From NCBI GenBank assembly GCA_024399015.1, contig JAKSIC010000027.1:1-40705 (forward strand): a stretch of 40,705 nt of DNA, read 5' to 3'. Source of the stretch: Fibrobacter sp. (GTDB lineage Bacteria; Fibrobacterota; Fibrobacteria; Fibrobacterales; Fibrobacteraceae). Shown one piece after another: positions 36,037 through 40,705 of the stretch. Every line of letters starts with the position of its first letter. Position 1 is the stretch's first letter. The position numbers and the translations under genes are program-made. Under the pieces are notes generated by a model. That model was not told the origin of the DNA and did no database searches. It saw only the letters and a program-made list of their open reading frames with translations.

Positions 36037-39000
36037 TTATTTACCTCGTTTAATACCGAAGGAATAGGTATCGTAACTATCGCCGACAACGTTCTTGCCC
36101 GAGCGAATCTTTACCTTGACCTTAGTGACATAGGCTCCGGTTCCAACAACACGTCCCTTTTCACTACGACCATCCCAACCAAAGAAGATATTGCCAGGAT
36201 TATCGTAGCAATTGGACTTTTCAGGATCGGCAGGATTATAGAACACCGTTGAATCATTGCACCTGATAGTTCCCTTGCCCTTATTTACAAAACCGCCAAG
36301 ATGGGTAAAGTAGTAATTTTCCCAATCGATTCGTACAAGGGCCAAGGCGGAATCTCTGTTAGCTCCGGAAGGAAGATTCATAATCTTTTCCATAGCGACT
36401 TCACCGATATTGAAATTCAGTAATGCGCCCGGCTTTCCAAGACTATCTACAATATCCTTGACAGACTTGTTCACAGGAACAGAAACTGGTACAACATTCT
36501 TTCCATTAGACGGGATCGATTCATTGCCAATTCTCACAAGGCCAGGCACCTTGATTTCCGTCCTCTGCTTACCGCTGATACGAACCTTAGGATTATCGAA
36601 ATGAGGAGAGTTTCCACTTAGATCTCTCAAATCTCCAGGAACAAGCCTAATTGAATCGCCAAGCACAGGCAACAAGCCATAAGTTGAGCGACGGAAAGAA
36701 ACCTTGATTACGTTTCCATTAGAATTCGATTGAGCCACAACGAAAAGCAACGAGTCAGAAATATCCACCGAGTCCCTGAAGATCTTAAACGCAGCGGCTG
36801 CATCCGTAATTCTAGTAGAAGTACCTTCACTCAAGTTTACGGTCAGGTTGCTCACTTCTTCAGAAATCGGATCAATGGTTGCACTCAAAATGACTGGGCC
36901 CACATGATCCTCAATAGCAGCGCTCATTCCGAGTTTCACGGAGTCACCAGAATCCTCATCCAAGTACGTGTAGTGATACTTCAGTGATCCATTGTAGACT
37001 TCGTCTGCAACACCAGTGAACACGCTCTTCATCAAGTTGCCTTCGCCCCTGATAATCAGCATTGAATCATTAAAGACCAAGGGCGCAATGTTCTCCTTAC
37101 CAGCCGTAGTGTGGAATGTTGATTCTCCAAAACTCCATGCTAAAGTATCAGGCACATTTTCACCGAAAGGCTTGCTGAAAGGAATTGCAAGGCTGTCAGG
37201 AATTCCGTCTCCATTGACGTCAAACATTTTTGCATGGGAAACAAAGGGAACAGGAGGTTCCTTGAAGTGAATGTTATTCCATTCAATTTCATTGCTGACA
37301 AAACCGCTGGAAACCTTAAACGAAGCATTCACCATGGCAGCTTCGCCCACCACATAGAAAGAAGCATAGCCCGTTGAATCAGTTGTCACAGAAGAAACCT
37401 TCTGTCCCTTGGCATCCAAGAAACTCAAAGAATCGCTGGTTTCAAAATTCAAGGGAACAATGCAATCGCCACAGACAGAACCCACATAGAGAACCGCGAT
37501 TTTCAAAGGTCTGCCTTCAGGATACGTCACGTGAGCGAGCAAGGTGTCGTTCTTAGGATCAGCACCAAGCTTCTGGCCACGCAAATTCAATCCCGTGGGG
37601 TCAAGAATCTTCAACGTATCGGCAGGATTAAACACGTCTACAAAAGCGATATCCGGAAGAGGATACTCGGGAACGACAAAGGAAATCATCTGGTACTGAG
37701 ACAGATCCGAGGCCAGGTAGCAAACCAAGGTATAGTTGCCGGAAGGCAAGGATCTGGATCGAACAATTGCGCTCGTATCAATGGTAAAACCAGCCATGTC
37801 TTCACTGATATTGATGCCGCCATAATTCAAGCCCGGCTCAAGGGAAATACCTTCTGCGGGCAAATTTCCACCTACAAGCTGGAACACAGACTGGGCAGCC
37901 TTCTTTTCAACCTTGGAAACGCTAGTCACGTCACAACTCAAGGATTCGTCAACCAAGAGCTGCATTAAGTTGTACGAAATCGTACCGTCGGTTGTGGGAA
38001 CGGCTTCTGTGTAGAAAGTCTTCTGCGTACGCAAATTGATGGACGTGCGCATCTTGAAGTTGGAACCCGTCGCATTACGCTCCGAGAAGAAAATATGGAA
38101 CGGATATTCAACGCCTTCCTTAAGCTTCAGCTTCGGATCGTTCTGACCGATGGTATCCAAGTCCACAAATCCTTCCAAAGGACCATGGCAGCCGCCAATG
38201 TCCACCACCAAATGGTTATTGATAAAGACCCACACGTCATCATCACCACGGAACTCGAAGTACTGTCCCTTCACGTACTGGAACTGGGCGGAAATCTTCA
38301 TGGCGAAACTGTAATTGTGCTTCTTGCCGCCAGCAGTCAGTTGGTCAGCCCAGTCGAACTTGGGATTCTTCACAGTCTTTGCAGAATCCAGATATTCCAA
38401 GTCATCGATAGGGAAGAATCCACCATCCTCGTGCGCTTCGGAAATATCAGCAAGCCAGAAACCTTCATCGTCCAACGTCAAGTCGATATCACGACAAACG
38501 CCATTGGTGTACATATTTCCATTCTTGTCCTGGGCAACTTCAACAGGGACAAACCACTTTTCAATTTCACGGGCGGCGGAGCACTGGCTCCAAGGGTACT
38601 TCAAGGAATCCACGCGAGCAGGAAGGCCATTCACAAGCGTATCTTCCACCATGCCCGTAACCAAGCCTTGGCACTTCTGTGTGGAATCCAATTTACCCGC
38701 AGAATCCAAATAGAAAATCTTGGTATAATCATTGCCATCGTAGATGCCACCGAAGTCCACATCCTGGGCCTTGTCCCAATTCTGGGAATAGGAAGGCTCG
38801 CCGGCAGGTCTAACACCTTCACCGGCCCAGTCCACCACCAAGGCTGAAATTTTCATGGTGGGGCAAATACCTAAACGACCTGGATAGGACTTGCTAAAAC
38901 GGGGAGCACTGGCGGATGTCGGATAAGGATATACCCAGACCGTATCATGAAGCGCCACCATGGAATCCAGGTTGATCGGGTCACCTTCATTAAGACCTGC

Positions 39001-40278
39001 GGCAGTGTAATGTTCAAAACCAAAAGCTTCCCTGAACTTGACATCCCAGGAATCCATGTGCTTGAAGGACAAGGCCTGATACCAACCACAGGTATCCTTG
39101 GAAATGGGCCCCATCTTCAAAGTATCACTCTCCGTAAGCATAACGGGAGCCATGTTATCCCACGGGCTCATAAGACGGATTACCTTGGGTTCCAGCGGAG
39201 CATAAAGAATCTCGTAATTTTCCTTATCCTTTGTATAGAACCAGACTTCATAAATTCCCTTGGGGAAAATCTTTGAAAGGGACGGCCTATTAGGACTACG
39301 CCAGGTACCAGCAGGAATCTTAAAGAATCTCTTGGATCCGTTCTGGTCAGACTTGATATCCAAGGTTGCACCTTTCCACTGCTGATCATTCACCTTTTCA
39401 ACAGGGAACGTATGAGACCACCAGAAAGCATATTCACCAGTGCTATCCATCTTTATGGACTGTCCGACATTGTCGGCATCCAGATAAATGGCGCTATCCC
39501 TGATGGTGGTATTTGTTCGCCAAGGATGATAGACATGCAATGTTCTCGAGGAATCAAAGCACTCGCCCAAGGTACCAATTTTTGTATCAATGGTCGGAAC
39601 TTCAGTGGTTCCATCCACAAATATCGTATCTGCAAGGGACAAATAACTGAACAAGTCCATTACATCATTTTTAGGAACGGACAAGTAGGAGGCGTTGTAG
39701 CGAACAAAGTAGGCAGACTGCATCGGGTTTGCCTTCATCATTGCAGGAGAAATTGCGCCAGCGAACCAACCACACGTGGTTTCGTCATCCTGGGCGAAGT
39801 ACATCAGTGCCGTATCTGCGCCGAATACAATCTGAGGCAAAGCCTTGTTCCCCCAAGGACTCTTGAACCACACCACCTTGGATCCAGGAGGAGTCAAGCT
39901 GATTGTATGAGAATTTGCATCCGTGTAGATCCAGAGTTCGTCGTCGGAGGCGAACAATGTCGTCATGGAAAACTTGACCTCGGATGCGCCTTCGCTCCAG
40001 GCCACGCTAGTTGCGCAACTGCCATTCGGGCAACCGCGAACTCCGAAATCCTGCCAGCTGAAATCAGAAACAACCTTGTCCCAGGTGTAGCTGAACCAGC
40101 CATCCCCTTCAGCGGTCATCTTGTATTCAGGTGACGTGCCATAACCCGTAGCACCCCCAAGTACATACAAATCATAGCTGCCGTCGCGCCATGGCGACTG
40201 AATATGAACGGTAAGTTTTGCCTGAGCAAAAACAGAAAAAAGCAAAATAAAGAGAATCGCCCAAACATTGTGTCGCAT
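36037..40278 (-). CDS. Giant secreted fibro-slime domain protein
   Basis: 1413 residues from ATG 40278, fixed by AAAGGAG 8 nt upstream (a GTG two codons earlier is less likely). A signal peptide (about 1-20, ending FAQA) leads into four N-terminal units opening with (S/H)PW: VHIQSPWRDG (~25), VVWFKSPWGN (~136), LHVYHPWRTN (~249) and VIRLMSPWDN (~366). Two of these contain a later TCGW(F/Y). The fibro-slime domain lies at about 590-770: FRGDDDVWVFINNHLVVDIGG, then KLKEGVEYPFHIFFSERNATGSNFKM, a PA14-like core. A DVNGDGIPD loop (~1020) looks like a calcium site. The C-terminus (FFGWDGRSEKGRVVGTGAYVTKVKV) resembles the FlgD-like/gliding-type sorting ends. Fibro-slime proteins are linked to cell-surface material and adhesion to cellulose in Fibrobacter; the role here is inferred from that family. 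Confidence 0.87.
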   Translation of the reverse strand: MRHNVWAILFILLFSVFAQAKLTVHIQSPWRDGSYDLYVLGGATGYGTSPEYKMTAEGDGWFSYTWDKVVSDFSWQDFGVRGCPNGSCATSVAWSEGASEVKFSMTTLFASDDELWIYTDANSHTISLTPPGSKVVWFKSPWGNKALPQIVFGADTALMYFAQDDETTCGWFAGAISPAMMKANPMQSAYFVRYNASYLSVPKNDVMDLFSYLSLADTIFVDGTTEVPTIDTKIGTLGECFDSSRTLHVYHPWRTNTTIRDSAIYLDADNVGQSIKMDSTGEYAFWWSHTFPVEKVNDQQWKGATLDIKSDQNGSKRFFKIPAGTWRSPNRPSLSKIFPKGIYEVWFYTKDKENYEILYAPLEPKVIRLMSPWDNMAPVMLTESDTLKMGPISKDTCGWYQALSFKHMDSWDVKFREAFGFEHYTAAGLNEGDPINLDSMVALHDTVWVYPYPTSASAPRFSKSYPGRLGICPTMKISALVVDWAGEGVRPAGEPSYSQNWDKAQDVDFGGIYDGNDYTKIFYLDSAGKLDSTQKCQGLVTGMVEDTLVNGLPARVDSLKYPWSQCSAAREIEKWFVPVEVAQDKNGNMYTNGVCRDIDLTLDDEGFWLADISEAHEDGGFFPIDDLEYLDSAKTVKNPKFDWADQLTAGGKKHNYSFAMKISAQFQYVKGQYFEFRGDDDVWVFINNHLVVDIGGCHGPLEGFVDLDTIGQNDPKLKLKEGVEYPFHIFFSERNATGSNFKMRTSINLRTQKTFYTEAVPTTDGTISYNLMQLLVDESLSCDVTSVSKVEKKAAQSVFQLVGGNLPAEGISLEPGLNYGGINISEDMAGFTIDTSAIVRSRSLPSGNYTLVCYLASDLSQYQMISFVVPEYPLPDIAFVDVFNPADTLKILDPTGLNLRGQKLGADPKNDTLLAHVTYPEGRPLKIAVLYVGSVCGDCIVPLNFETSDSLSFLDAKGQKVSSVTTDSTGYASFYVVGEAAMVNASFKVSSGFVSNEIEWNNIHFKEPPVPFVSHAKMFDVNGDGIPDSLAIPFSKPFGENVPDTLAWSFGESTFHTTAGKENIAPLVFNDSMLIIRGEGNLMKSVFTGVADEVYNGSLKYHYTYLDEDSGDSVKLGMSAAIEDHVGPVILSATIDPISEEVSNLTVNLSEGTSTRITDAAAAFKIFRDSVDISDSLLFVVAQSNSNGNVIKVSFRRSTYGLLPVLGDSIRLVPGDLRDLSGNSPHFDNPKVRISGKQRTEIKVPGLVRIGNESIPSNGKNVVPVSVPVNKSVKDIVDSLGKPGALLNFNIGEVAMEKIMNLPSGANRDSALALVRIDWENYYFTHLGGFVNKGKGTIRCNDSTVFYNPADPEKSNCYDNPGNIFFGWDGRSEKGRVVGTGAYVTKVKVKIRSGKNVVGDSYDTYSFGIKRGK

Positions 40279-40324
40279 AAACACAACTCCTTTAATACAA
40301 ACATCCCAATATGAAAATATCTTC

Positions 40325-40345: not shown

Positions 40346-40393
40346 AAACTGTCTATAAAAGAAAGTTGTGTTGTGATAACTACAAGGCAACAT

Positions 40394-40607
40394 GCCCGAA
40401 GGATGGCCTAGGGATGCGAGGTCCTCGCCCTATGTTTTGTACCAGGAACAAGTCCCTGACAAAACATGGGGATGACATCCTTCGGCGAACGGCTGGCGAA
40501 GCCAGCCTCCTGCGCCAGGGCGCAGAGCCTCAGTAGCGCGAGCCGCCGTAGTGTACCGGGTGTACATGAGGCGGCGAGCAACGAAGTATCGCGAAGCCCA
40601 TGGGGAA
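40394..40607. repeat. Array of hairpins next to the rRNA operon
   Basis: This 214-bp stretch has no credible gene but is almost wholly self-complementary. A 10-bp outer stem CCGAAGGATG/CATCCTTCGG (40396-40405 with 40476-40485) encloses two hairpins: GCGAGG/CCTCGC (40416-40428) and ATGTTTTGT/ACAAAACAT with CAGG/CCTG (40432-40467). Then follow GGCTGGC-gaa-GCCAGCC (40491-40507), CTGCGC/GCGCAG (40510-40525) and GCCGCC/GGCGGC with an inner GTAC/GTAC (40542-40575). It may be an interspersed palindromic repeat or part of a structured RNA. Confidence 0.6.
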
Positions 40608-40612
40608 AATAC

Positions 40613-40648
40613 AAAAAAGCCCCCCGAGAGGTTTACCTCAAGGGGGGC
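40613..40648 (-). terminator. Terminator of the rRNA operon
   Basis: On the minus strand GCCCCCC (40648-40642) with GGGGGGC (40625-40619), an inner GAGG/CCTC pairing and six T. It lies a few nucleotides after the 5S rRNA 3' end. Confidence 0.9.
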
Positions 40649-40651
40649 GTG

Positions 40652-40705
40652 AATCCAGCAGCGACCTACTCTCCCGGGCCCGTAGGCCAGGTACCATCGG
40701 CGATA
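40652..40705 (-). rRNA. rrf: 5S ribosomal RNA, 3' half (runs off the right edge)
   Basis: Read on the minus strand, the window edge begins inside 5S rRNA. GATGGTACC...GGGAGAGTAGGTCGCTGC is the conserved 3' portion (loop E/helix IV region and the 3' strand of the closing helix). About 54 nt are present, and the 5' half plus presumably 23S and 16S lie beyond the window. The exact 3' end is accurate to within a few bases. Confidence 0.9.

Follow-up and report, generated by a model that had tools for sequence, protein, structure and literature searches.

Palindromic repeats in bacteria are, as a rule, constant sequences dispersed behind genes. The BOX elements of pneumococcus are interchangeable modules in intergenic DNA, and the attC sites of integrons are long imperfect hairpins with fixed mismatches that lie directly after a stop codon in the orientation of the gene. 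In PMC3733652, REPs are reported as extragenic, palindromic, and mosaic, often touching stop codons.

The window (the whole stretch of 40,705 nucleotides analyzed here) is a contig of Fibrobacter sp. Judged by its sequence, the segment 40390–40614 (minus strand) is a recombinant copy combining two Fibrobacter modules, A and B. The order on the minus strand is the end of a 5S rRNA gene at the contig edge, a terminator, the hairpin array, and the gene of a PA14-domain protein. The window edge is the contig edge, and the 5S portion inside it is about the last 53 bp (40653–40705, minus strand), which match the Rfam 5S_rRNA model (positions 63–120) with 20 bits, under the gathering score of 38. In two contigs of relatives (L266 and L267), the same sequence is preceded by more of the 5S. 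The hairpin of the rRNA operon terminator (inverted repeat I2; 40619–40648, minus strand) is followed by a T run, and this arrangement is repeated in L263 and L266–L269. On the other side of the array, an ORF of 1415 codons (36037–40284, minus strand; Pfam PA14, 1.1e-9) encodes a protein that we take to be fibro-slime-like, with an orthologue at the same place in the genome of a relative (G009, locus L263). Rfam gave no match at the gathering score in the window, and its sub-threshold matches other than 5S were taken as chance.

The preliminary description placed the array beside an rRNA operon, which is right, and all of the stems that it named are present. One stem of 10 bp is perfect (40396–40405/40476–40485), another is paired at 12 of 13 positions (40428–40440/40459–40471), and a third is GGCTGGC-gaa-GCCAGCC (40491–40497/40501–40507). 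The others are at 40510–40516/40519–40525, 40416–40421/40423–40428, and 40542–40547/40570–40575. The RNA fold of 40390–40612 had z scores of −3.65 (minus strand) and −4.69 (plus strand), and none of 200 shuffles was equally stable on either strand. The 10-bp stem, which spans 40396–40485 and joins the last arm of B to the linker of A, was found in this copy alone. It is absent from the other 24 of the 25 module A copies compared, where the complement between the flanks is at most 8 nt; it was therefore rejected as a feature or guide of the family.

A BLAST search of the 223-bp segment against its own genome returned the window copy alone at E ≤ 0.001 and two weak 30-bit matches at E ≤ 1, and two sequence patterns searched in that genome found nothing beyond the window copy. 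Against 60 genomes, including its own, there were strong partial matches within the genus. They fall into three blocks of the query (27–148, 147–207 or to the end, and 1–32), and reading of the matched loci resolved these into the two modules A and B, the third block being the last arm of the B element. The suggestion of a palindromic repeat family therefore holds for the modules across the genus and not for the segment as a whole, which is single copy in its own genome. Since conservation is strong, the segment is not the single-copy sequence devoid of conservation and transcription that had been named as the counter-case.

Module B is an imperfect rod hairpin of approximately 115 nt with conserved mismatches. 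In an alignment of 19 copies (A1), 92.8% of 627 cells are paired, 23 of 33 pairs are changed on both sides, and 99 cells carry double changes. The covariation score was 0.427, compared with 0.145 after shuffling, and none of 500 shuffles scored as high; sliding the partner by 1–3 columns reduced pairing to 31–45%. The covariance model of this module (R1) matched 78 of 80 genomes of the genus (46 candidates scored per genome), and 90 of 167 genomes in 7 of 40 genera across the phylum (22 candidates per genome). The copy counts are lower bounds: the own genome has at least nine B copies at E ≤ 1, with 150 of 376 candidates scored, and 150 candidates per genome were also scored in six congeners. 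Among class relatives outside the family, R1 matched 12 times in G050 and 5 times in G039; B-like rods may therefore extend beyond the family. A tandem pair of B elements lies behind gspF/pilC in the own genome (L032, 1453–1654).

Rfam searches gave nothing in 12 loci and only tRNAs in 8 further loci. A phage or plasmid origin was rejected, as searches of phages and plasmids gave no match; the B core motif does occur in two viral contigs, and these fail R1 (best score, 14.2 bits). A literature search, conducted largely without subscription papers, found no description of such palindromes in Fibrobacter. The genus-wide family of gene-end palindromes is real and, as far as that search reaches, undescribed. 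Its anatomy and distribution are firm, whereas the copying mechanism and any effect on mRNA, discussed below, are proposals.

Like the REP/BIME sequences (GTAG and CGTC families), B is palindromic, mosaic, and extragenic, and it often touches stop codons. However, its unit is ~115 nt instead of 20–40, its arms are locus-specific, and few copies per genome were found (at least nine at E ≤ 1 in the own genome), unlike the short units and high copy number of REP/RAYT systems. B shares with attC a long imperfect hairpin with fixed mismatches directly past the stop codon, in gene orientation. However, B follows housekeeping genes, whereas attC follows cassettes, and B has no conserved AAC..GTT boxes; at columns 16–18/94–96, the third position is C-G in 5 of 19 and 22 of 76 copies. 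An identity with attC was rejected because the boxes are absent. BOX elements are likewise modular; by description rather than by sequence, B is set apart from them by its anchor at gene ends and its locus-specific arms.

The positions of B copies were analyzed in a sample taken without choice, which comprised 9 matches in the own genome (E ≤ 1) and 40 in six well-assembled congeners (E ≤ 0.001). All but one of these 49 copies directly follow an open frame of at least 150 codons on the same strand; only the copy in the window departs from this, as it lies behind 5S. The stop codon ends within −20 to +10 of the element start, at or in the first arm, in 44 of the 49; a mirror control at the other element end gave 14 of 49, none of them tight. 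The copies used to train R1 lie mostly at stop codons, which could favor such matches among weak ones. Ten copies found by BLAST, with R1 not used, also lie at stop codons (L003, L010, L011, L013, L014, L018, L021, L024, L026, and L028). The host genes include gspF/pilC, ilvC, pgk, purB, glnS, argF, lysA, and the genes for a GH94 enzyme, PFK, and PGM.

The arms were compared in 74 of 76 R1 matches, from which L012, L019, L020, and other near-duplicates had been left out. Among these 74 elements, 24 tail groups were distinguished, including a group of five elements for which no open frame was found. The first arm is often composed of the last codons of the gene and its stop codon, and the far arm tends toward complementarity with the last codons of its own gene. 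The mean complementarity between first and last arms was 9.0 for cognate pairs. It was 5.9 (sd 1.4) over 5034 non-cognate pairs with arms from other genes, and 7.4 when the last arm came from the same gene of another species. In 42 of the 74 copies, the own arm scored above 95% or more of the foreign arms, and in 16 above 99% or more; therefore, the cognate-arm effect is clear in the mean and not in every copy.

Module A is a structured domain of approximately 115 nt with a three-way junction. In the window (40422–40536, minus strand), it consists of the hairpins 40510–40525 and 40491–40507, a conserved linker, and a long third hairpin (40428–40471), and its covariance model (R2) scored 137.9 bits at 40408–40544. 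R2 matched 47 of the 80 genus genomes. A is inserted at a fixed position of B (..CG^CCTYG..); by reading, the copies in the window, L003, L024, and L027 have CG or TTTG of B on one side and CCTYG of B on the other. Within the named genome collection, the A core pattern occurs in 17 records, all of them Fibrobacter MAGs. In an alignment of 13 copies (A3), 99.2% of the cells are paired and 17 pairs have double changes; none of 500 shuffles reached these counts, except in the category of further pair types, where all 500 did. An internal GA/GA step (tandem G-A) is invariant in 54 of 54 aligned copies, including distant ones, and the neighboring helix varies with its pairing maintained. Alignment A6 was built from 53 chosen sources, and row L030 was set aside from A. 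The counts of G-U and A-C in A were 16 and 8 among 27 distinct main copies (p 0.15) and 4 and 6 in distant copies, with no clear preference. A thus has both covarying helices and a conserved unpaired motif, as a structured RNA does, and it is probably structured as RNA when transcribed. The suggestion of a structured RNA in the preliminary description holds in part: A has the compensatory changes and the invariant tandem G-A, but in B, G-U shows no preference over A-C.

Distant relatives of A occur at the end of gpmI (1561–1697 in L104; also L105–L116, L121, and L122), and beyond them 14 of 15 loci hold the gpmI tail a second time. This second tail (EAWDDSMLIxK-stop) encodes nearly the same peptide, and the differences are mostly synonymous. 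The flanks near the gpmI elements in L106, L109, and L104 contain other short palindromes (CCCTGAGCTTGTCGAAGGG, GATCCCGGATCAAGTCCGGGATGAC) that look like further repeat families. Another A-like subfamily adjoins a tRNA 3' end (L117, 1458–1594; also L118, L119, and L123), and in loci of this type the tRNA end and its terminator seem to recur in inverted orientation.

The window copy is assembled from pieces with different relatives. The first half of its module B (40537–40614, minus strand) comprises the outer left arm (40597–40614), the conserved TTCGCGATAC..CGTTGCTCGCC, and the central GTAC-core hairpin with arms 40542–40547/40570–40575. The last arm (CCTCGCATCCCTAGGCCATCCTTCGGGCATG; 40390–40421, minus strand) belongs to a B type that differs from that of the first half. 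Positions 40536–40612 are identical at 77 of 77 sites to G024:C78, a different rRNA flank in a relative, and positions 40391–40421 are identical at 31 of 31 sites to the last arm at the orthologous locus L263 (G009:C56:132–162). L263 has the 5S end, the terminator, an uninterrupted B-type element, and the same PA14 gene. Because the two identities point to two different relatives, the window copy is regarded as recombinant. The hybrid fits R1 poorly, with 59.4 bits (40498–40614) compared with 111.9 for L269. B-type matches were found at six rRNA flanks in G009, G024, and G035 (L263, L264, and L266–L269; E 6e-32 to 0.087, that of L264 being weak), and the same search gave no B-type match in L265. 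The two rRNA flanks of G009 (L263 and L268) have an identical terminator, and their divergence begins at the start of the B element, which is expected if rRNA operons are homogenized up to that point.

A second locus was read in depth. The GspF/PilC gene was found in 79 of 80 genomes, and 58 of the 79 3' flanks match R1 (E ≤ 0.01); the remaining flanks are empty, bear remnants, or hold a rod missed by R1 (L207, by eye). Several unlike arm types occur at this gene alone, and some intact elements are followed by the far half of an element of another type, with its start at the apex GTAC. A regular expression gave 41 candidates for such half-hairpin remnants, many of them false, and inspection by eye retained 13 sites in 12 loci. 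This reading suggests that the gene-proximal half may have been replaced repeatedly. The idea of a recombination hot spot is borne out in part, by these remnants and because the window copy is a hybrid.

We favor, with a probability of roughly 0.6, the reading that the segment belongs to a family of palindromic 3'-end elements and arose by recombination, the arms of such elements being renewed at the DNA level and the elements replaced piecemeal. B is fixed to the 3' boundary of a transcription unit. Its first arm begins at the stop codon or slightly ahead of it, or directly behind an rRNA terminator, and its last arm is complementary to the sequence of that very locus. A is a compact domain within B at one fixed point. 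The anchoring, the locus-specific arms, and the hybrid make-up are observed; what follows is proposed. No enzyme that would move the element was found. The arms may be kept or made complementary by fold-back copying (template switching) or by recombination at the palindrome, and piecemeal replacement would leave the far half behind. For the window copy, the half nearer the rRNA genes would derive from an element beside a different rRNA operon, with the older far arm retained. The simplest account of the hybrid, as far as three draft genomes indicate, would be inter-operon gene conversion that stopped inside the element. In the transcript, the rod might cap the 3' end and shield it against nucleases, a step that we hold less firmly.

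A plain mobile palindromic repeat of the REP/BIME or MITE kind, spread by a transposase, for which the position after stop codons is a mere insertion preference, seems unlikely. The modular mosaic, the nested modules, the tandem copies in L032, and the presence or absence of the element at one gene would all agree with it, as would the overlap with stop codons reported for REPs in PMC3733652. However, the Y1 transposase (PF01797) was found in 27 of 80 genomes and not in the own genome, compared with B in 78 of 80, and a REP driven by RAYT was rejected because most genomes lack this transposase. An insert with fixed ends also leaves unexplained why the arms are complementary to the last codons of each host gene. 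For a MITE, terminal repeats, a target duplication, and an empty site are expected; loci without B exist, and their flanks are too diverged to fix the exact insertion point. Moreover, the same genes bear B in many species; this persistence could mean function rather than turnover, which weighs against the favored reading as well.

Function is central to the notion of a conserved regulatory or stabilizing RNA of the 3'UTR, in which selection acting on each base of the mRNA would account for all of the complementarity. The fixed strand and place, the metabolic and biosynthetic host genes, the compensatory changes, and the invariant tandem G-A of module A fit such an RNA. An RNA helix would tolerate G-U pairs. 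However, in the B pairs, with one constant T-G pair left out, G-T occupied 40 cells and A-C 67 (76 copies), and after clustering at 80% the counts were 39 and 58 (p 0.067). That G-U is not commoner than A-C speaks for pairing set at the DNA level; the counts do not favor selection acting on the sense RNA, and they would fit DNA-level copying or plain chance. The half-hairpin remnants and the hybrid copy also indicate DNA events, and the window copy sits past an rRNA terminator. We regard such a 3'UTR RNA as quite improbable.

A bolder form of renewal at the DNA level is that B is a self-renewing gene-end element. Its far arm would be rewritten from the last codons of the host gene, either through fold-back copying or through guide-like pairing, which would at the same time select the site of insertion. 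It could thereby colonize the stop codon of almost any gene, with A as its RNA-like part. The relatives of A at gpmI, which lie between the gene end and the second tail, would give the impression that units bringing in a new gene end are inserted at that point. We consider this extension quite doubtful. A family of intrinsic terminators, each a hairpin plus U-tract at the end of a transcription unit, is very improbable and was rejected, because despite the gene-end position and the T-rich sequence after some right arms, the longest T run at the B 3' end about equals that in the control (3.26 and 3.20, 76 copies), and ordinary terminators adjoin B.

Returning to the favored reading, the pieces of the window copy suggest that these palindromes may have been swapped and rebuilt repeatedly. 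Copies that tend to match the last codons of their own gene, are anchored at stop codons across the genus, and leave visible remnants offer a naturally preserved history of palindrome formation, breakage, and repair. Fibrobacter is an important cellulose degrader of the rumen, and the family offers a testable candidate for the control of mRNA 3' ends in this organism.
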